A stretch of 64,000 nt of DNA from Hydrogenovibrio thermophilus (GTDB lineage Bacteria; Pseudomonadota; Gammaproteobacteria; Thiomicrospirales; Thiomicrospiraceae): NCBI RefSeq assembly GCF_004028275.1, contig NZ_CP035033.1, positions 2,414,501-2,478,500 on the forward strand, read 5' to 3'. Position numbers and translations under genes: made by a program. Shown here piece after piece: positions 547 to 28,874 of the stretch. The notes below the pieces were generated by a model, which was given only the letters and a program-made list of their open reading frames with translations, was not told the origin of the DNA and ran no database searches. Every line of letters starts with the position of its first letter. Position 1 is the stretch's first letter.

Positions 547-2331
547 TTAGTACACGCGAGGCTTGGGTTCGAATCCGGTCACGGTCAACGGCGTGACGCA
601 CACCGGCTTATAACGCAGACGATGGCCATCCAGAAAATACAGACTGTGTTGCAACCAGTTTTCGTCGTCACGCTCGGTAAAGTCCACGCGGGAATGCGCG
701 CCGCGACTTTCCGTTCGTTCAATCGCGGAATGCACGGTGGCATACGCCAGCGTCATCAGGTTTTCCAGCTCCAGCGCTTCCATGCGTTCCAAGTTGAACG
801 CCCGGCTGCGGTCGTGCAATACGGCTTCATCCAAACGCTGTTGAATCGGCTCCAAGGCTTCAATCAACGCCTGCATGGATTCCTGGTTGCGGAAAACCCC
901 GCAACCTTCCTGCATGGCGGCTTGTAAATCGTGTTTGATGGCGGCAATGGACTCCTTGCGGTCATGCGCTGGCGCTTCCCATTTGTTCAGTCGCGCTTCC
1001 ACCGGCGCCAAATCCAATCGGCGGTCGAAGTTGCGGTCCGATTTCTGCAAGTTCAACACCCGTTCGATTTCCTTGGCGGCGGCCCGTCCGAACACGACGA
1101 TGTCCAATAAAGAATTCCCGCCCAAGCGGTTCGCACCGTGCACCGACACACAAGCGCATTCGCCCACCGCATACAAGCCCGGTACACTGATGGCCTGACC
1201 GCTTTCATCCAGCGTCTGCACCTGACCGTGGAAATTGGTCGGAATGCCGCCCATCATATAATGCGCGGTCGGATACACCGGAATCGGGTCGTCGCACATG
1301 TCCAAGCCCAAAAACGTCAAGCCGATGTCGCGAATGCCCGGCAAACGCTTTTTAATCATCTCCGAATCGAGATGAGTCAAATCCAGCAACACATGATCTT
1401 TATTCGGGCCGCAACCACGTCCTTCCTTCACCTCGATGGCAATGGCGCGTGACACCACATCCCGCGACGCCAAATCCTTCACATGCGGCGCATAACGCAC
1501 CATAAAGGCTTCTCCTTCGGCATTGCGCAACACGCCGCCTTCGCCGCGCGCCGCTTCCGACAACAACATGCCTTTGTTCGCCACGCCGGTCGGGTGGAAC
1601 TGCCAGAACTCCATGTCCTGCAACGGCAAGCCCGCGCGCAGTACCATCGCCAAACCATCGCCGGTGTTGATTTTGGCGTTGGTGTTGGTTTTGAATAGCT
1701 GGCAAGCGCCGCCCGTGGCCACCATCACTGCATGAGCGCGCAACAACTGATATTCACCGTTTTGCAGGTTCATCACCACCATACCGCCGATATGGCCAAC
1801 TTCATCCTTGACCAAATCCACCGCAAAAAATTCATCAAAAAAGGTCGTGCCCGCCTGAATGTTCTGCTGATACAGGGTTTGCAAAATAGCATGTCCGGTG
1901 CGGTCCGCCGCCGCACAAGTGCGCGTGGCTTGGCTTTCGCCGAAATTGCGGCTTTGACCGCCGAACGGGCGTTGGTAGATTTTGCCTTGCTCGGTGCGGG
2001 AAAACGGCACCCCGAAATGCTCCAACTCGCGCACGATTTCCGTGGCTTCCCGGCACATGAATTCAATCGCATCCTGATCGCCCAGATAATCGCTGCCCTT
2101 GACGGTGTCGTACATATGCCAATGCCAGTTATCCTCGGTCAAGTTGCCCAAGGCCGCATTAATGCCGCCCTGCGCTGCCACCGTATGCGACCGGGTCGGA
2201 AACACTTTCGACACCACCGCCACCCGCAAATCCGACTTGGCCAATTGCAACGCAGCCCGAAGCCCCGCGCCCCCGGCTCCGACAATCACCGCATCAAAAT
2301 GAAAGGTATCGACCTGCTGCAATGAAACCAT
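547..2331 (-). CDS. sdhA: succinate dehydrogenase flavoprotein subunit
   Basis: The catalytic flavoprotein of complex II oxidises succinate to fumarate and sits on the cytoplasmic face of the membrane. The dinucleotide-binding motif GAGGAGLRAALQLAK is near the N-terminus. The SHTVAAQGGINAALGN block carries the histidine that binds FAD covalently, followed by the HPTGV segment and the C-terminal ANRLGGNSLLDIVVFGRAA block. I prefer the ATG at 2331 (MVSLQQVD, 594 aa) because a GAGAGG ribosome site lies 4 to 6 bases upstream and the length matches the family. An in-frame ATG at 2373 would add 14 residues and overlap the end of sdhD. The gene lies between sdhD and sdhB in one operon. Confidence 0.96.
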   Translation of the reverse strand: MVSLQQVDTFHFDAVIVGAGGAGLRAALQLAKSDLRVAVVSKVFPTRSHTVAAQGGINAALGNLTEDNWHWHMYDTVKGSDYLGDQDAIEFMCREATEIVRELEHFGVPFSRTEQGKIYQRPFGGQSRNFGESQATRTCAAADRTGHAILQTLYQQNIQAGTTFFDEFFAVDLVKDEVGHIGGMVVMNLQNGEYQLLRAHAVMVATGGACQLFKTNTNAKINTGDGLAMVLRAGLPLQDMEFWQFHPTGVANKGMLLSEAARGEGGVLRNAEGEAFMVRYAPHVKDLASRDVVSRAIAIEVKEGRGCGPNKDHVLLDLTHLDSEMIKKRLPGIRDIGLTFLGLDMCDDPIPVYPTAHYMMGGIPTNFHGQVQTLDESGQAISVPGLYAVGECACVSVHGANRLGGNSLLDIVVFGRAAAKEIERVLNLQKSDRNFDRRLDLAPVEARLNKWEAPAHDRKESIAAIKHDLQAAMQEGCGVFRNQESMQALIEALEPIQQRLDEAVLHDRSRAFNLERMEALELENLMTLAYATVHSAIERTESRGAHSRVDFTERDDENWLQHSLYFLDGHRLRYKPVCVTPLTVTGFEPKPRVY

Positions 2332-2362
2332 TTCGCCTCTCTTCTCTTTATTCTTTAAAATC

Positions 2363-2698
2363 TCAGTTCGCAACCAACTGCACGGCTAAAAACACGCCAT
2401 CAGCCAACACCAACAACCACACCAACGCCCAAAGCCATAATCCCGCTTGCAAGGCTCTGCGCGGCAGATAATCCAGCAACACATCCCGCAATCCGACCCA
2501 AGCGTGCACCATCAACAATCCAAAAGCCAGCAAGGACGGCCACAAAAACAGCCAATGCGACATCGCCGCTTGCAGCTGCGCGACGGATTCGGTCGGCGCT
2601 TGCCACCAGTACAACGCCGCCAAAGGGAAATACACCATCAGATACCAGGCGCTGAACCGTTGCCAAACATGCGCTCTCAAGCCGGATAACACGTTCAT
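2363..2698 (-). CDS. sdhD: succinate dehydrogenase membrane anchor subunit
   Basis: This hydrophobic anchor subunit of complex II helps bind haem b and quinone. From the ATG at 2698 the protein is 111 residues, begins MNVLSGLRAHVWQRFSAWYL and has three membrane segments, the usual SdhD size. An open frame extends further upstream, but the ATG at 2698 overlaps the sdhC stop codon in an ATGA arrangement, which indicates translational coupling and decides the start. The HAWVGLRDVLLDY stretch in the middle fits the haem-ligand helix of the family. Confidence 0.88.
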   Translation of the reverse strand: MNVLSGLRAHVWQRFSAWYLMVYFPLAALYWWQAPTESVAQLQAAMSHWLFLWPSLLAFGLLMVHAWVGLRDVLLDYLPRRALQAGLWLWALVWLLVLADGVFLAVQLVAN

Positions 2699-3090
2699 AA
2701 CCAGACTCCCGCAAAAACCACCACCGCCCCAACGGCAAACAACGCCAATAACAGCAGGCCGGATTGCCGCCCTTTTTGCGGCTGGCTTTGCCATTGAAAC
2801 GCATCATGTTCCATCATCAGATGCCGCACCCCAGCCAACCAGTGAAACCACAAGCTGACAGCAGCGAAAAACCAAATCAACTGCCCCAATGGATGCGTCA
2901 GGGCTTGCAAGGTGTCCGCTCTTTGTTCAGGAAACAAAACCCACAGATTCAACCAGACCAGGCCGGTCAACAGGAACAACAATAACCCCACACCGGTGAT
3001 GCGGTGCAAAATGGAAAGAATGGCGTTTAACGGAAAGCGAAAGGCGAACAGATTGAGGTAAACGGGGCGTTTGCCGGGATGGCGATACAT
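2695..3090 (-). CDS. sdhC: succinate dehydrogenase cytochrome b556 subunit
   Basis: The first gene of the sdhCDAB operon encodes the cytochrome b subunit (131 aa). It shows the family signature near the N-terminus (RPVYLNLFAFRFPLNAILSI followed by LHRITG) and the WFHWLAGVRHLMMEHD segment that supplies the haem b histidine. Three transmembrane helices are evident. The stop codon overlaps the sdhD start. A plausible sigma70 promoter lies about 95 bases upstream of the start codon. Confidence 0.93.
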   Translation of the reverse strand: MYRHPGKRPVYLNLFAFRFPLNAILSILHRITGVGLLLFLLTGLVWLNLWVLFPEQRADTLQALTHPLGQLIWFFAAVSLWFHWLAGVRHLMMEHDAFQWQSQPQKGRQSGLLLLALFAVGAVVVFAGVWL

Positions 3091-3183
3091 AAAAGAACTC
3101 CTAGCTTTTCACGACCGCTGCGTAGCGCCGTCGCGTTCATCCCCCGAATGACCGGAGGCATGACTGTCCATGAGATAATTCCA

Positions 3184-3212
3184 AGTATACTCCATACCCA
3201 AAATAAGGTTAA
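3184..3212 (-). promoter_or_regulatory. candidate sigma70 promoter for sdhCDAB
   Basis: On the reverse strand TTAACC (3212-3207) and TATACT (3189-3184) are separated by 17 bases. The minus-10 element matches 5 of 6 consensus bases and the minus-35 element 4 of 6. The position is about 95 bases before the sdhC start codon. No other gene start could use it. Confidence 0.5.
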
Positions 3213-3233
3213 CCCCACGATTTATAAAATTCA

Positions 3234-3243
3234 CCAGGCCTGG
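3234..3243. repeat. CCAGGCCTGG palindrome copy (intergenic)
   Basis: Exact copy of the iterated 10-bp palindrome. Here the symmetry extends to 16 bp (3231-3246). It lies just upstream of the sdhC promoter, between sdhC and an AT-rich gene. Confidence 0.85.
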
Positions 3244-3362
3244 TGAGATTATGCTTTTACGTAAAAATAAATACAGTTAAGATTAAAGCTATAGTAAATT
3301 TCAGATATATCGCGTTGACTTTATTTTAAATATGCAATATCTAAAAATAATTGGTTAATAAA

Positions 3363-4166
3363 ATGAGATATCAATTACAAAAATGGTGGGAAATACAACA
3401 AAAGTTATGTTTAAAACTTAATCGTAGTCAGAAAATTTATCTAATCGCTTTATATACTCTGCCTATATCAACCTTATTATGGTTATTTCAATCTAATAAT
3501 GACTCTATTTGGGCTTTTAGCTTTTCTATTGGCGCTCTATTTCTGGGTGTTCTCTCGGATGTAGCTTATCTATTTAACTACCTAAAAAAATACAAATTAG
3601 CAAAAAAGTTAACTATATACGGCTATGCCTTTATTTCATTTTTTTTATTGAGCTTCAGCTATCAAATAGTTAACCATTTAGCAGAGTTTGATGTAGGACT
3701 ATTAACTAATACTGTTATTTTCACCTCTTTTGTTCTCCTTCCCCTCCTAATTTTTCTGGTAATTATCGTACTTCTTACTATCGGCTTGCTGCTTGCCGAA
3801 ATTTATTTTTTTATTTCTCTTACCAGCACTAAGAGATTTAAAAGAACCAGCAATACTCTTTTTAAGATCAAGTCGGAAAGGTATCCAAAACACACATTTT
3901 TTGGAAGAATCGTTGCATACAGTCTGATTATTTTGATAACTTTTATGCTGGGAGCGTTCGCAAAAAAACCATACGAAAAATTACTATCCAAAAGTGTAGC
4001 TTGGTATATGTACCAATTTGAAGCCGTAAAGTACTCACGCTGCCAATTCCCAGAGGGAAAAGAAGGAAAGGCTATTTCATTAGACAATAATGAAATACTT
4101 TTTATTGAAAAAAAGAGTGATGGTTACCGGTTTCAGCCAATGAAATGTGTTGAGAAATTAAAATAA
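3363..4166 (+). CDS. orphan multi-pass membrane protein
   Basis: I do not recognise this protein (267 aa from the ATG at 3363; an upstream in-frame TTG at 3351 could add four residues, and neither start has a clear ribosome site). It has an N-terminal cytoplasmic stretch, about five membrane helices in the first 210 residues, and a short soluble C-terminal domain with a cysteine pair (in SRCQFPEG and in MKCVEKL). The gene is strikingly AT-rich and uses codons unlike its sdh and acetolactate synthase neighbours, which suggests horizontal acquisition. No partner gene is apparent: it lies alone between divergent sdhC and the next operon. Confidence 0.7.
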   Translation: MRYQLQKWWEIQQKLCLKLNRSQKIYLIALYTLPISTLLWLFQSNNDSIWAFSFSIGALFLGVLSDVAYLFNYLKKYKLAKKLTIYGYAFISFFLLSFSYQIVNHLAEFDVGLLTNTVIFTSFVLLPLLIFLVIIVLLTIGLLLAEIYFFISLTSTKRFKRTSNTLFKIKSERYPKHTFFGRIVAYSLIILITFMLGAFAKKPYEKLLSKSVAWYMYQFEAVKYSRCQFPEGKEGKAISLDNNEILFIEKKSDGYRFQPMKCVEKLK

Positions 4167-19528: not shown

Positions 19529-20353
19529 ATGCCAAAACGTACCCATACATCGCTCAAAGCCTTTGTGCTGACTCTGTTTCTATACAGCTCGGCCATCCTC
19601 GCCGCCGTCTGGCAATTCGACAGCCTGACCTACAGCGAAAAAACGCCGAACGTCCGCGAAGTGCCAATCAACATCAGCATGTATCAGACGCCAACACCGG
19701 TCAAGCCGGTTAAGGCCGTTGAACCACCGAAGCCTAAGCCTGCCGAGCCGGTAGAAGAAACCGTAACCGAACCGGAACCCATTGCGGAAATTCCGAAGCC
19801 GGAGCCGATTGCCAAGCCCAAACCAGCCAAGCAACCAAAGCCGGAACCTAAAAAAGTGGTCAAAAAAGAGGTTCCGAAGGTCGTTAAAAAGCCGGTCGAA
19901 AAACCGAAACAAACGGCCAAAAAAGCACCGACTCAGCCGGTGAAAAAAGTGGCGAAAGCCGCAACGCCGAAAGTGGTTGAACCGCAACCGGTGGAAAAAA
20001 CCATTACCGAACAGCCCGCGCCTCCGACTTACAGCGCCTCGCAAATCGCCGATGCCGAAGACCGCTATCTTTCCGAACTGAGTCGCACCCTGGCGCAACT
20101 GGCGCAGGACAGTTATCCGCGACGTGCCAAACGTCGTCACTGGGAAGGCGAAGTGGTGCTGAAGTTCGTGCTCTATCGTAATGGCGACATCAAACAGCTT
20201 CAGATTGTCGACGGCGATCGTCGCACCGTTTTAAACGACGCGGCTGTTGGCATCATTAAAGACAAAATGGGAATGCGTTTCAAACCCTTCTATAAGGAAA
20301 TCGAACGTAACCAATGGCACCTGACGGTGCCGGTCAACTTCTCATTGAACTGA
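19529..20353 (+). CDS. tonB: TonB energy transducer
   Basis: TonB couples the inner-membrane proton-motive force to outer-membrane receptors (274 aa). A single N-terminal helix (SLKAFVLTLFLYSSAILAAV) is followed by a long Pro/Lys/Glu-rich periplasmic spacer at about residues 50-165. The C-terminal TonB domain contains YPRRAKRRHWEGEVVLKFVL and ends in HLTVPVNFSLN. A ribosome site AGGAGG precedes the start. It is the third gene of exbB-exbD-tonB. A likely client is the thiamine-linked receptor at 38543 in this same window. Confidence 0.93.
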   Translation: MPKRTHTSLKAFVLTLFLYSSAILAAVWQFDSLTYSEKTPNVREVPINISMYQTPTPVKPVKAVEPPKPKPAEPVEETVTEPEPIAEIPKPEPIAKPKPAKQPKPEPKKVVKKEVPKVVKKPVEKPKQTAKKAPTQPVKKVAKAATPKVVEPQPVEKTITEQPAPPTYSASQIADAEDRYLSELSRTLAQLAQDSYPRRAKRRHWEGEVVLKFVLYRNGDIKQLQIVDGDRRTVLNDAAVGIIKDKMGMRFKPFYKEIERNQWHLTVPVNFSLN

Positions 20354-23068: not shown

Positions 23069-23494
23069 TCAATCACTGGCCAGCTTTTTCAAGGCCTCAA
23101 TGCGCGCCTCGTCAAAGCCTTCCGGCCACTTCTCGGGGTGCTCCAAATCTTTCAGGTGCACGCCCTCTTCCGGCAGTTTCGGTAACTCGAAGTGCGTTAC
23201 CCAAGGCACATTATGTTGATACATATACGCGCCCTCGGTACTGTCGACCGCCGATAAATGATACAGGTGTTCAAACACTTCGTCGGCGTATTGCGGCGCC
23301 ACAATGACGCGCAACATGTCCATTTCCTGCCAGTCTTTTTCCGACAACAGCGAATGCTGGTTACGGATCGACACATACTCCGTCGCCAGAATGTGGTCTC
23401 TTTGATACAGGTCATCCAAAATGGCTTTGGAGTGTCCACGCGACAGTACGCATACAATGGATTTGGCCTGCAGGCAATGGTCTTGATTCAACAC
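23069..23494 (-). CDS. P-II-like small protein linked to DUF1538 transporter
   Basis: A 141-aa protein I do not recognise with certainty. The SIVCVLSRGHSKAILDDLYQ segment and the beta-alpha-beta spacing, with DMLRVIVAPQYADEVFEHLY as the second unit, resemble the ferredoxin-like fold of P-II (GlnB) proteins. The C-terminal third is polar and specific to this protein. It is the last gene of a three-gene reverse-strand operon: DUF1538 membrane protein, P-II protein, then this one, with gaps of 1 and 14 bases. A regulatory role for the transporter is an inference. Confidence 0.65.
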   Translation of the reverse strand: MLNQDHCLQAKSIVCVLSRGHSKAILDDLYQRDHILATEYVSIRNQHSLLSEKDWQEMDMLRVIVAPQYADEVFEHLYHLSAVDSTEGAYMYQHNVPWVTHFELPKLPEEGVHLKDLEHPEKWPEGFDEARIEALKKLASD

Positions 23495-23508
23495 AATTCC
23501 GTCTCCAC

Positions 23509-23919
23509 TTATTGCTCAGGCATGGCGATGGTGGTCGCGGCGGTTTTCAAAGCGCGCTCTTTCTCAATGCGTTCGATGATGTTCGGCGGAATGTAAGCGG
23601 CGGCTTTTTCCAACGGCGTGACAAACATAATGCCCATGCCCGGCGTGTCCAACTGACCGGCGATGAACATCTCGGCAAAGACTTCCTCTTCCTGCTGTTT
23701 GGACACCATGATTTGGATAACTTCCTTTTCCGCCTCCACGGTGATACTCAACAGCCCCAAGCGTTCACGCACCCCGGCGCCCCGGCCGTAATGAATGGAC
23801 GCGCCCTGCGCCCCGGCCGCCCTGGCCGCCGCCACAATGGCATCGCCCTTGCCGCGCGGCACCATGCAGGTAATCAGCGACACATCGGTCAAAATCGTCA
23901 TTTCTTTCTGTAATTTCAT
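23509..23919 (-). CDS. P-II family regulatory protein
   Basis: A 136-aa GlnB/GlnK-superfamily protein. The fold is indicated by VSLITCMVPRGKGDAIVAAA, the T-loop-position segment GAQGASIHYGRGAGVRERLG and the second unit KEVIQIMVSKQQEEEVFAEM. The uridylylated tyrosine context of GlnB is not conserved, so it probably senses a small molecule without UTase control. It starts one base after the DUF1538 gene and belongs to the same operon, as GlnK does with AmtB. That the P-II protein gates the transporter is inferred from this layout. Confidence 0.8.
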   Translation of the reverse strand: MKLQKEMTILTDVSLITCMVPRGKGDAIVAAARAAGAQGASIHYGRGAGVRERLGLLSITVEAEKEVIQIMVSKQQEEEVFAEMFIAGQLDTPGMGIMFVTPLEKAAAYIPPNIIERIEKERALKTAATTIAMPEQ

Positions 23920-23920
23920 C

Positions 23921-25651
23921 TTACGACTCCTTAGCGTCCATGGCGGTTTTCAGCGCAGCCTTTTCCTGGCGCATGCAACGTAATTTAATCCACAACCCGG
24001 TCAATAATACGGTGATGATCGGCCCAATGGAGGCCATCGACAGAATGCCGAATCCCTCCACCACACCGACGGCCTGACCCAGCCCCAACCCCATTGCCAG
24101 AACCAGTGGCACCGTGACCGGCCCGGTGGTCACCCCGGCACTGTCCCAGGCGACGTTCACAAACTCTTCCGACGACAACACCGTCAGCACCAACGCAAAC
24201 AGGTAAGCCGGAATCAACAACCAGGCCAGTGACCAGTCGAAAATGATTTTCGACACCCCGACCGCGATACCGATACCGACGCCGAGCGACACCGCCATCA
24301 TCAAGGTTTGTTTTTTGAAAGCCCCGTTGGTCAGGCGCTCCACCGTCATGCCCAAGGCATTCAAGGCCGGTTCCGCCAAAGTCGCCCCAAAGCCGAGCGC
24401 AAACGCAAACAATACCGTAATGGCAATGCCCATACTGAACCAGTACAGTGGCGATTCTTTAATGGATTCAATACCGGTAAACGCGCCGGGAATCATTTCA
24501 CCGGCCTGACCGCCGAGTTTCGCCAACCCATAGGTCAGCCCCAGATTGAAAATAATCATCCCCACCACCGAAAACGCCAACCCAAGCATCACCACCTGAG
24601 CGTTTTGCAAACGATCCCGCAACAAGAACACCAGCACCAATCCCAGAAATAATACCAGCGGCACGATGGCGCGAATCCCGGCGATGATCTCCACATAAGG
24701 CGTGGTTTCATACCAAAAAACCGGAGCTTTATTCATGAAATGGCTCAAGGCTTCGATTTCCGCCACCGATACCGTGCTATGGATGTAAAGCGCCAATAAT
24801 TGCACCCCCATAATCGGGAACAAGGACGCCAAGGTTACAATACCGAAGCCGGACAACGATTGATTGCCGCTCCCCGCCGCCGAGGCAATGCCGATGCCCA
24901 GCGCCAACACCAACGGCACCGTGACCGGCCCGGTGGTCACCGCTCCACTGTCCCACGCCAGTCCAATCAGATGCACCAGTTCGGGGTGCTGCATACTGTA
25001 AAGGGTAATCAACAAGGTCGGAATCACCGTCAAGAAAATCAGCGGTTTCAGACTCCAATCATAAATGAACCGCAAAGTGCCCAGCACGGCCGCCAATCCC
25101 ACACCGCCGCCGACCACCAAAACCAGCATGCCCGGCCAATGGTTCAATAAAGCATACAGATAGGGCGCGCTTTTCGGGTCGACATTGGCTCCGGCGGCTT
25201 TCAAAGCGCCGATGGCCGGTTCCGCGAACGTCACCCCGATACCGAGCAGAAAAGCGATCAACAGCACCACCGGCAAGGTCGATTTCTGCGGTAGCTTATT
25301 ACCGATTACCTCCCCGAATGGCATTAACCCGAGGCGCAGGCCCTCCATAAAAAACATCAGTCCGAAAATCACCGCCAACATGCCGCCGAGAATAATGGAC
25401 GCATCGGCAACCGGCTGCCGCAAAATCAATATCTGAAACAACGCCAGATAAATCGTCAAAGGCATGACCGCTTTCAGCTGTTCAAAGACTTTGGATTGCA
25501 GATAAGGCCGCAATAAACGATAGGCATCAACCGGTTTGATTTGGAATTTCTGATACGCCGCTTCCGGCGAATGGGTCAGTTCATTGTAGGTGATGACTTT
25601 GGTGTTGAAACGTTCGTGTTGGACGATGTCGTGAAACGAGACCTTTTTCAT
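23921..25651 (-). CDS. DUF1538 family membrane transporter-like protein
   Basis: A 576-aa polytopic inner-membrane protein of the DUF1538 family. It is an internal duplication: WDSGAVTTGPVTVPLVLALG in the first half recurs as AWDSAGVTTGPVTVPLVLAM in the second, and FAEPAIGALKAAG as LAEPALNALGMT. Such inverted or direct duplication with re-entrant GPVTVP loops is usual for transporters. The first ~55 residues are a soluble extension. It leads an operon with two P-II-like proteins. The substrate is not known to me; P-II linkage and the likely autotrophic host make a nitrogen or inorganic carbon substrate worth testing. Confidence 0.82.
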   Translation of the reverse strand: MKKVSFHDIVQHERFNTKVITYNELTHSPEAAYQKFQIKPVDAYRLLRPYLQSKVFEQLKAVMPLTIYLALFQILILRQPVADASIILGGMLAVIFGLMFFMEGLRLGLMPFGEVIGNKLPQKSTLPVVLLIAFLLGIGVTFAEPAIGALKAAGANVDPKSAPYLYALLNHWPGMLVLVVGGGVGLAAVLGTLRFIYDWSLKPLIFLTVIPTLLITLYSMQHPELVHLIGLAWDSGAVTTGPVTVPLVLALGIGIASAAGSGNQSLSGFGIVTLASLFPIMGVQLLALYIHSTVSVAEIEALSHFMNKAPVFWYETTPYVEIIAGIRAIVPLVLFLGLVLVFLLRDRLQNAQVVMLGLAFSVVGMIIFNLGLTYGLAKLGGQAGEMIPGAFTGIESIKESPLYWFSMGIAITVLFAFALGFGATLAEPALNALGMTVERLTNGAFKKQTLMMAVSLGVGIGIAVGVSKIIFDWSLAWLLIPAYLFALVLTVLSSEEFVNVAWDSAGVTTGPVTVPLVLAMGLGLGQAVGVVEGFGILSMASIGPIITVLLTGLWIKLRCMRQEKAALKTAMDAKES

Positions 25652-28238: not shown

Positions 28239-28874
28239 ATGCATGATTTGATACAGCAGTTCATTATCCTCTGGGCCGTCATTGACCCCATCGGCACCAT
28301 TCCGGTCTTCCTCGCGGTCGCGGCGGGCTACACCGCCGTTCAGCAGCGCAAGCTTGCGCTCTTCGCCATCGTCACCTCTGCGGGCGTGTTATTGTTTTTC
28401 ATCATTGCCGGCCAGTTACTGCTGGAATCGATGAACATCGCCTTGTCGGCCTTTCAAATCGCCGGCGGCATCGTGCTGTTCCTGTTCGCTTTGACGATGA
28501 TTTTCGGCGAAGGCAAACCCCAGGAAGAAAAAGAATTGCTCGCCCAACAAGATACCCGTTCAAGCTCGCCGGTTAATCACGCTATTTTTCCGCTGGCCAT
28601 TCCGTCCATCGCGTCGCCCGGCGCAATGATGGCGGTGGTCATGCTCACCGACAATCACCGTTTTGAAGTCATGGAACAGGGGATCACCGCCGGCTTGATG
28701 TTGCTGGTCTTGCTCATCACCTTTATTTTGTTGCTGGGTGCCACCTTTATCCACCGATTGATCGGCGATGCGGGTGCCAGTGTCATCAGTCGGGTCATGG
28801 GGTTGATTCTCGCCGCCGTCGCGACCAACAGTATTTTGGAAGGCATTAAAACCTACTTTGCGCTAAGTGTATGA
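28239..28874 (+). CDS. MarC family integral membrane protein
   Basis: A 211-aa protein with six predicted membrane helices of the MarC/UPF0056 family. It has the conserved FIILWAVIDPIGTIPVFLAV start and the central HAIFPLAIPSIASPGAMMAV loop. The biochemical function of the family is unclear; early links to multidrug resistance in E. coli were not upheld. It starts 21 bases after yicC and is probably co-transcribed with it. Confidence 0.9.
   Translation: MHDLIQQFIILWAVIDPIGTIPVFLAVAAGYTAVQQRKLALFAIVTSAGVLLFFIIAGQLLLESMNIALSAFQIAGGIVLFLFALTMIFGEGKPQEEKELLAQQDTRSSSPVNHAIFPLAIPSIASPGAMMAVVMLTDNHRFEVMEQGITAGLMLLVLLITFILLLGATFIHRLIGDAGASVISRVMGLILAAVATNSILEGIKTYFALSV

Follow-up and report, generated by a model that had tools for sequence, protein, structure and literature searches.

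In Hydrogenovibrio thermophilus, a 64,000-nucleotide stretch of the genome (positions 2414501-2478500 of a single contig of 2,612,894 bases, referred to here as the window) carries three minus-strand genes encoding a fused membrane transporter of the DUF1538 family and two proteins of the P-II family, P-II-1 and P-II-2. The association of DUF1538 transporters with P-II proteins recurs in several phyla, and the explanation that best accounts for it is that the transporter probably works as an antiporter of monovalent cations and protons under the control of P-II proteins that appear to have lost the main residues for binding adenosine triphosphate (ATP) together with the uridylylation tyrosine. 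The gene order, its conservation, the P-II homology and fold of the partner proteins, their residue losses and the family relation to the antiporter UmpAB are established here, and the antiporter reading follows from the two DUF1538 halves of the transporter, from its matches to UmpA and UmpB, and from the demonstration that UmpAB is a Na+(Li+,K+)/H+ antiporter. The pairing of DUF1538 with P-II was not found in the literature searched, which was open access and had most subscription journals outside it, and within that scope a regular coupling of DUF1538 antiporters to P-II proteins is apparently undescribed.

The first-pass annotation of the window had noted that only 1 nucleotide separates the transporter gene from that of P-II-1, with 14 more between P-II-1 and P-II-2, and the open reading frames (ORFs) lie exactly so; the gene-neighbourhood survey that it proposed has now been carried out. 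A genome scan with P-II-1 recovered 78 loci, which span the Gammaproteobacteria, Rhodospirillales, Nitrospinae, Nitrospirae, Lentisphaerae, Gemmatimonadetes, Opitutales, Mariprofundaceae, Campylobacteraceae and others. The transporter lies ahead of P-II-1 in 72 of the 78, its frame being broken in L010, L036 and L047; of the other six, L008, L040, L076, L079 and L080 are truncated by a contig end, beginning at or just within P-II-1 or the end of the transporter, and in L077 only a fragment is seen. The junction between transporter and P-II-1 is an identical 4-nucleotide overlap in 56 of the 72 loci, and with this overlap, and with a gene order that is repeated in several phyla, the pairing goes beyond chance. 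P-II-2 is present in 66 of the 78 loci by single-sequence search and in four more by profile. The 12 loci that lack it in the single-sequence search comprise three contig-end cuts, the four recovered by profile, and L031, L032, L038, L077 and L069, the last of which is unsure, being a near-copy of L067, which has one.

Approached from the transporter, the association is equally regular. DUF1538 occurs in 90 of 274 gammaproteobacterial genomes, and its position was available for 80 of these, of which 74 have a P-II-1 profile match no more than 3 kb away and 67 one no more than 400 bp away, against a chance expectation for 3 kb that we estimate at roughly 1%, given the few P-II genes of a 3-Mb genome. 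The six exceptions are G121, whose P-II is seen in locus L092; G032, G038 and G033, fragmented genomes with the P-II match on another contig (the G032 locus ends 176 bases past the transporter ORF); and G196 and G097. In nine of the ten remaining genomes the pairing is visible in extracted loci, the tenth being G134. Of the 30 gammaproteobacterial DUF1538 loci that score best, nearly all have the split umpA-umpB arrangement, L092 being fused, and a single P-II adjoins DUF1538 in 29 of the 30, the exception, L098, ending at a contig edge. Within the Nitrospinae phylum DUF1538 occurs in 48 of 77 genomes, and P-II was found in 29 of 30 extracted DUF1538 loci, L165 showing none in its stretch. Fifteen genomes of this phylum have at least four DUF1538 matches and several hold frames of both split size and fused size, which are seen together in G277, G280 and G287 among others, so that the two layouts probably have separate jobs. 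Fifteen genomes without DUF1538 also match the P-II-1 profile, 13 of them weakly (E 5e-7 or worse), which is the level expected from ordinary P-IIs, and two closely. The idea that the fused operon is a mobile unit was considered and dropped: in the Gemmatimonadetes phylum of the genome of L068, DUF1538 was found in 1 of 240 genomes, and since this sole positive is the centre genome chosen for its operon, the count shows only rarity there.

The transporter was initially described as a duplicated, uncharacterised membrane protein, and the first half of that description is borne out. It matches DUF1538 (PF07556) with 364.7 bits in total, well past the gathering score of 22.6 bits, in two domains that score 186 and 185.6 bits separately, and it is the product of the single DUF1538 gene of the host genome. 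The family is by contrast no longer uncharacterised, since it includes UmpAB of Halomonas zhaodongensis, a Na+(Li+,K+)/H+ antiporter encoded by two genes, for which growth complementation, everted-vesicle experiments and co-immunoprecipitation as a heterodimer are reported (PMC5484666); of the cargoes first envisaged, an ion is supported as one possibility. The sole NCBIfam models matched by the window protein are UmpA (NF041627, 233.3 bits), whose best stretch is the first half, and UmpB (NF041628, 178.6 bits), whose best stretch is the second. UmpA and UmpB are two separate subunits, and the window has one fused ORF of 576 residues; judged by sequence, then, the window protein is a member of the DUF1538 family that resembles a UmpA-UmpB fusion and is not a UmpA or UmpB equivalog. 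Each half carries a TxAEP motif (E144, E427) and a WDxxxVTTGP motif (D234, D503) that are invariant or at least 95% conserved in an alignment of 45 fused forms, that of the window among them, drawn from 73 transporter sequences, and these motifs are natural candidates for the binding of ions and protons. The amino-terminal extension, of about 60 residues, is typical of the fused form, in that the transporter ORFs of 30 other DUF1538 loci align to the fused profile no earlier than position 43-71 in 58 of 59 cases, most of them from 60 on, the remaining one aligning from 328.

Both smaller proteins are assigned to the P-II family by profiles, and P-II-2 additionally by a confident fold model, in keeping with the early suggestion of a P-II protein joined by a second, divergent P-II-like partner. 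P-II-1 alone scores 23.1 bits against the Pfam P-II model, slightly below the cut-off of 25, and each of the 49 P-II-1 sequences aligned, out of 79 and with that of the window among them, reaches the P-II family with E no higher than 0.1; their profile matches solved P-II proteins at E 1.9e-6. P-II-2 has no Pfam P-II match as a single sequence, and of its 48 aligned representatives (out of 67, with that of the window among them) 19 give a P-II match with E no higher than 0.1. Its profile matches solved P-II at E 1.4e-6, hhalign pairs it with P-II-1 at 99.4% probability, and its structure model, with a predicted local distance difference test (pLDDT) value of 90.3, fits structures of GlnK, DUF3240, SbtB, CutA and CPII, the best at E 5.6e-5. 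A tree of 70 P-II domains places P-II-2 in one group (support 95/92) and single P-IIs in another (97/97), and P-II-1 needs two changes, with L077 standing apart; many forks are not resolved, and the P-II-2 subgroup of the window sits on a long branch (2.02).

The residues of the ligand site set these proteins apart from canonical GlnB and GlnK, in which Y51 is uridylylated and R38, Q39, K58, K90, R101 and R103 bind ATP or 2-oxoglutarate (2-OG). With two of the three ordinary P-IIs encoded elsewhere in the host genome as rulers for the numbering, residues were tabulated for 77 of 79 P-II-1 sequences (two short ones were dropped), all 67 P-II-2 sequences and 22 hand-picked single P-IIs. None of the three sets has a tyrosine at position 51, in the loosely aligned T-loop, and none has K90; R101 and R103 occur in no P-II-1 and no single P-II. 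P-II-1 has I, F or Y in place of K90, T, A or S in place of R101, I or V in place of R103, and at position 39 R in 76 of 77 sequences and Q in one, and it retains G24, G35, G37, G87 and G89 (77/77 each) as well as K58 (76/77), which alone of the six ATP and 2-OG residues is preserved in this protein. P-II-2 is more varied, with R101 in 3 sequences, R103 in 6, R38 in 21 and K58 in 12, and that of the window has RNQ in place of the RG found in most relatives (R in 67/67, G35 in 56/67). These losses make sensing of ATP plus 2-OG, and uridylylation of the GlnD type, unlikely; they also speak against a nitrogen compound as cargo, another early suggestion, for which no evidence was found. Adenosine mono- or diphosphate (AMP, ADP) and cyclic AMP (cAMP) are known adenylate ligands of SbtB and CPII. 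Because both window proteins appear to lack the main canonical phosphate-binding residues, an adenylate without a triphosphate (AMP, ADP or cAMP), or another ligand, is more likely than ATP plus 2-OG. Cyclic di-AMP (c-di-AMP), the ligand of PstA, was considered and set aside: no diadenylate cyclase domain was found in the host genome, in a search whose control was positive in 11 of 14, and a self-made c-di-AMP signal is therefore unlikely in this host.

Three layouts of the system can be distinguished. In the first, umpA and umpB are accompanied by one P-II; the second is that of the window, a fused transporter followed by P-II-1 and P-II-2; and in the third a transporter, of which the second half is visible in the stretch, precedes a single chain of some 390-420 amino acids with two clear P-II domains. 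The third layout was found in three loci (L125, L126 and L127), or 3 of the 274 gammaproteobacterial genomes. Pfam alone recognises 2, 1 and 2 P-II stretches in these chains, and those of L126 and L127 have a third, weakly P-II-like stretch; perhaps they are natural single-chain P-II rings. Since P-II proteins act as trimers, this layout suggests that a ring can be assembled from dissimilar P-II units, and that P-II-1 and P-II-2 of the window may be joined in this way. In the mechanism envisaged for the window, the fused UmpA-UmpB-like protein would, like its family, swap Na+ and/or K+ for H+, P-II-1 would probably assemble with P-II-2 into a mixed P-II trimer, and P-II would dock on the cytoplasmic face of the transporter and open or close it according to a small ligand of the kind favoured above; AMP is given as a ligand of SbtB in the accessible part of PMC10710835. 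P-II-gated transporters are said there to be trimers, which leads to a sharp prediction, namely that the fused DUF1538 protein would be trimeric. A bolder form of the proposal, possible although rather doubtful, is that the whole antiporter family is directly P-II-controlled and that in the window a mixed ring of a ligand-binding P-II-1 and the degenerate P-II-2 caps a trimeric fused antiporter and senses adenylate status, not ATP plus 2-OG; if true, ion exchange would track the energy charge of the cell in sulfur oxidisers and other bacteria.

Several observations weigh against an antiporter under P-II control. The window protein falls far short of the equivalog cut-offs of UmpA and UmpB (490 and 500 bits). 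Its structure model (pLDDT 82.6, predicted template modelling score 0.82) has no convincing solved relative, the best Foldseek match being at E 0.043; the best VIA Z was 6.0 (an MRP4 chain) and that of ClC 5.0 at most, below the stated noise level of the tool, and single-sequence searches of the PDB gave no usable match. UmpAB is functional alone in E. coli and neither 'P-II' nor 'PII' occurs in the text of PMC5484666, so that P-II is dispensable for basic activity. The known P-II-gated transporters are described as trimers in a review (PMC10710835), whereas UmpAB has been shown only as a heterodimer. The two close P-II matches without DUF1538 noted above (G098, E 6.7e-16; G191, E 2.1e-14) come from genomes in many contigs. 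The remaining points come from co-occurrence in the 274 genomes, where associations are correlations among related genomes, checked with one genome per family for RuBisCO alone, and where RuBisCO was counted at E <1e-100 (128 of 142), SoxB at E <1e-100 (114 of 124; 112 above the curated cut-off) and NqrA at E <1e-15 (45 of 112). RuBisCO, taken without conditioning, is linked to DUF1538 (67/90 genomes with DUF1538 vs 61/184 without; 42/53 vs 32/106 with about one genome per family); the link is borderline where SoxB is absent (9/24 vs 24/136, p 0.05), and the RuBisCO term stays positive in a joint model (bootstrap 0.19 to 1.96). CsoS2 shows a weak overall link (26/90 vs 31/184, p 0.026). NqrA is not enriched with DUF1538 (17/90 vs 28/184), and a link of the family to sodium respiration, which had been entertained, was rejected on these counts.

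Among other explanations, it is possible but unlikely that the fused two-P-II form carries another solute than Na+/K+, either a different cation or a compound whose transport is powered by a cation gradient, while still being controlled by P-II. The distance from the equivalog cut-offs would fit, as would the coexistence of split and fused frames in Nitrospinae-phylum genomes, with its suggestion of different jobs, and the presence of a ZIP transporter and a P-type cation ATPase among the neighbours; yet the fused forms show little or no variation in the acidic and TTGP motifs of either half, and the only tested member of the family moves Na+, Li+ and K+ (PMC5484666). An inorganic-carbon transporter gated as SbtA is by SbtB was another cargo first envisaged, in a host presumed to fix CO2. 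The presumption about the host is confirmed by the presence of RuBisCO and the carboxysome protein CsoS2 in its genome, and the carbon reading can draw on the RuBisCO and CsoS2 associations just given and on RuBisCO in 19 of 30 two-P-II genomes (those of 30 of the 78 loci were examined). Against it, SoxB explains more (66/90 genomes with DUF1538 vs 48/184 without), a stronger link than that of RuBisCO: among genomes with RuBisCO, SoxB still matters (58/67 vs 37/61, p 0.001), whereas at fixed SoxB presence the RuBisCO link shrinks (58/66 vs 37/48, p 0.14). Within RuBisCO-bearing Gammaproteobacteria CsoS2 has no link to DUF1538 (26/67 vs 30/61, p 0.29), no RuBisCO was seen in the other 11 of the 30 two-P-II genomes and only 4 of the 9 fused-type genomes of the gammaproteobacterial sample have it, and the term 'DUF1538' is absent from a review of dissolved-inorganic-carbon transport genes and from a paper on the Thiomicrospira carbon-concentrating mechanism. 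Carbon transport is thus a very unlikely function, and because the SoxB link is the stronger and the CsoS2 link vanishes at fixed RuBisCO, the DUF1538-P-II system seems to go with sulfur chemolithotrophy rather than with the concentration of carbon. It is also improbable that the P-II-like proteins serve the transporter as structural subunits or as assembly factors rather than as sensors, as the vanished canonical ligand residues, the long branch of the window P-II-2 subgroup and its RNQ might suggest, since P-II-1 keeps the glycines and the K58 expected of a retained pocket and the transporter-linked P-IIs in the accessible part of PMC10710835 are regulators.

Comparison with known systems helps to place an antiporter with P-II control. 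SbtB is distinguished by an R-loop with a carboxy-terminal redox cysteine pair. As in SbtA-SbtB, a transporter has its own P-II-like protein, and the P-II-2 model fits the SbtB fold, but the transporter belongs to another family and the window has two P-IIs, neither with a cysteine in its carboxy-terminal half. NifI1 and NifI2 offer a precedent for two divergent P-II genes in tandem, although their target is nitrogenase and no transporter is involved. With AmtB-GlnK the window shares a membrane protein and a P-II encoded together (accessible part of PMC10710835) and the P-II superfamily itself; the window transporter is, however, no ammonium channel, and its P-IIs lack Y51 and K90 and mostly lack R101 and R103. 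PII-NG genes adjoin those of the CzcABC proton/cation pumps, as described in the accessible part of PMC7726332, and are in this respect another case of a P-II-type gene encoded with a proton/cation antiporter, but CzcABC is a metal pump of a different family with one P-II, whereas the window neighbour is DUF1538. UmpAB itself shares the Pfam family, with half A of the window protein similar to UmpA and half B to UmpB, and differs in that the window protein is fused, extended at its amino terminus, below the equivalog cut-offs and accompanied by two P-II partners; the words 'P-II', 'PII' and 'nitrogen' do not occur in the text of PMC5484666. The window module thus appears to combine a DUF1538 member with a P-II-superfamily module in the manner of a P-II-gated transporter, and its P-IIs are classed neither with GlnB/GlnK nor with SbtB.

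P-II proteins are among the best-known metabolic sensors of bacteria, and the membrane targets named for them in the accessible part of PMC10710835 are few, namely AmtB, Nrt, Urt and SbtA, for the uptake of ammonium, nitrate, urea and bicarbonate. The recurring pairing of exchanger and P-II suggests that a little-noticed switch may turn ion exchange on and off with metabolic state. A conserved tie to monovalent-cation/proton antiporters would link that state to pH and to Na+/K+ balance and would supply a regulator for DUF1538, a family that has been little studied; if true, cation/proton antiporters would be a kind of P-II target that has so far gone unrecognised. The two-P-II form, together with the multi-P-II chain, would show how dissimilar units can be combined in a P-II ring.

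At the level of the locus (Table 1), the AAGGAG of P-II-1 lies 7 nucleotides ahead of its gene and the GGAG of P-II-2 lies 8 nucleotides ahead, as read from the sequence, and since the former is inside the transporter gene translation is probably coupled. Downstream, a convergent flavin-reductase-like gene ends 11 nucleotides from the operon, and upstream a same-strand gene of the Ham1 family ends 215 nucleotides before the transporter; with these flanks the transcription unit most likely comprises the three genes. A scan for promoters and terminators gave fewer sites than shuffled sequences did (1 vs 2.3; 3 vs 4.3).

Table 1. Features of the three-gene locus in the window and of related loci; locations are window positions unless a locus is named.
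Feature	Location	Strand	Basis or context
Fused DUF1538 (UmpA-UmpB type) membrane transporter, 576 aa	23921..25651	minus	ORF list, DUF1538 matches, NCBIfam, structure model
P-II-1, conserved P-II-family partner, 136 aa	23509..23919	minus	ORF, Pfam, profiles, residue table
P-II-2, divergent P-II-family partner, 141 aa, GTG start, C-terminal helical tail	23069..23494	minus	profiles, fold model
N-terminal extension of transporter, residues ~1-62, typical of fused two-P-II form	25466..25651	minus	alignments
DUF1538 half A, UmpA-like, invariant TxAEP (E144) and WDxxxVTTGP (D234)	24788..25456	minus	alignment
DUF1538 half B, UmpB-like, invariant TxAEP (E427) and WDxxGVTTG (D503)	23993..24655	minus	alignment
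AAGGAG, ribosome-binding-like site of P-II-1, within the end of the transporter gene	23927..23932	minus	sequence
GGAG, ribosome-binding-like site of P-II-2	23503..23506	minus	sequence
Multi-P-II chain	L125 338-1591; L126 1099-2271; L127 1099-2286		adjoins DUF1538 transporter
Na+/H+ exchanger with cNMP domain	L011 1368-3863		operon neighbour
ZIP transporter with cNMP domain	L019 6735-8084		operon neighbour
Cyclic-nucleotide-binding-domain neighbour	L016 6831-8222		

Neighbouring genes at other loci were chosen by size and strand, not randomly, and of the nine examined in these hand-picked loci (a tenth is a DUF1538 protein) four encode cation transporters or proteins with a cyclic nucleotide monophosphate (cNMP) domain, which is in line with the antiporter reading; the remaining five are an enolase, a Ppx-GppA protein, a nucleotidyltransferase, an EamA protein and one without a match. 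The cNMP-domain neighbours in L011, L019 and L016 are a hint of cNMP signalling beside the P-II system. In L007, from Thiomicrospira microaerophila, a second DUF1538 protein (2-1336) followed by a P-type cation ATPase (1407-4133) lies directly upstream of the fused two-P-II operon. Elsewhere in the window, a plus-strand gene at 19529-20353 encodes a TonB-like protein with a long proline/lysine-rich stretch, judged by eye with no search made, and outside the operon another plus-strand gene, at 28239-28874, encodes a membrane protein of the MarC family as identified by Pfam.

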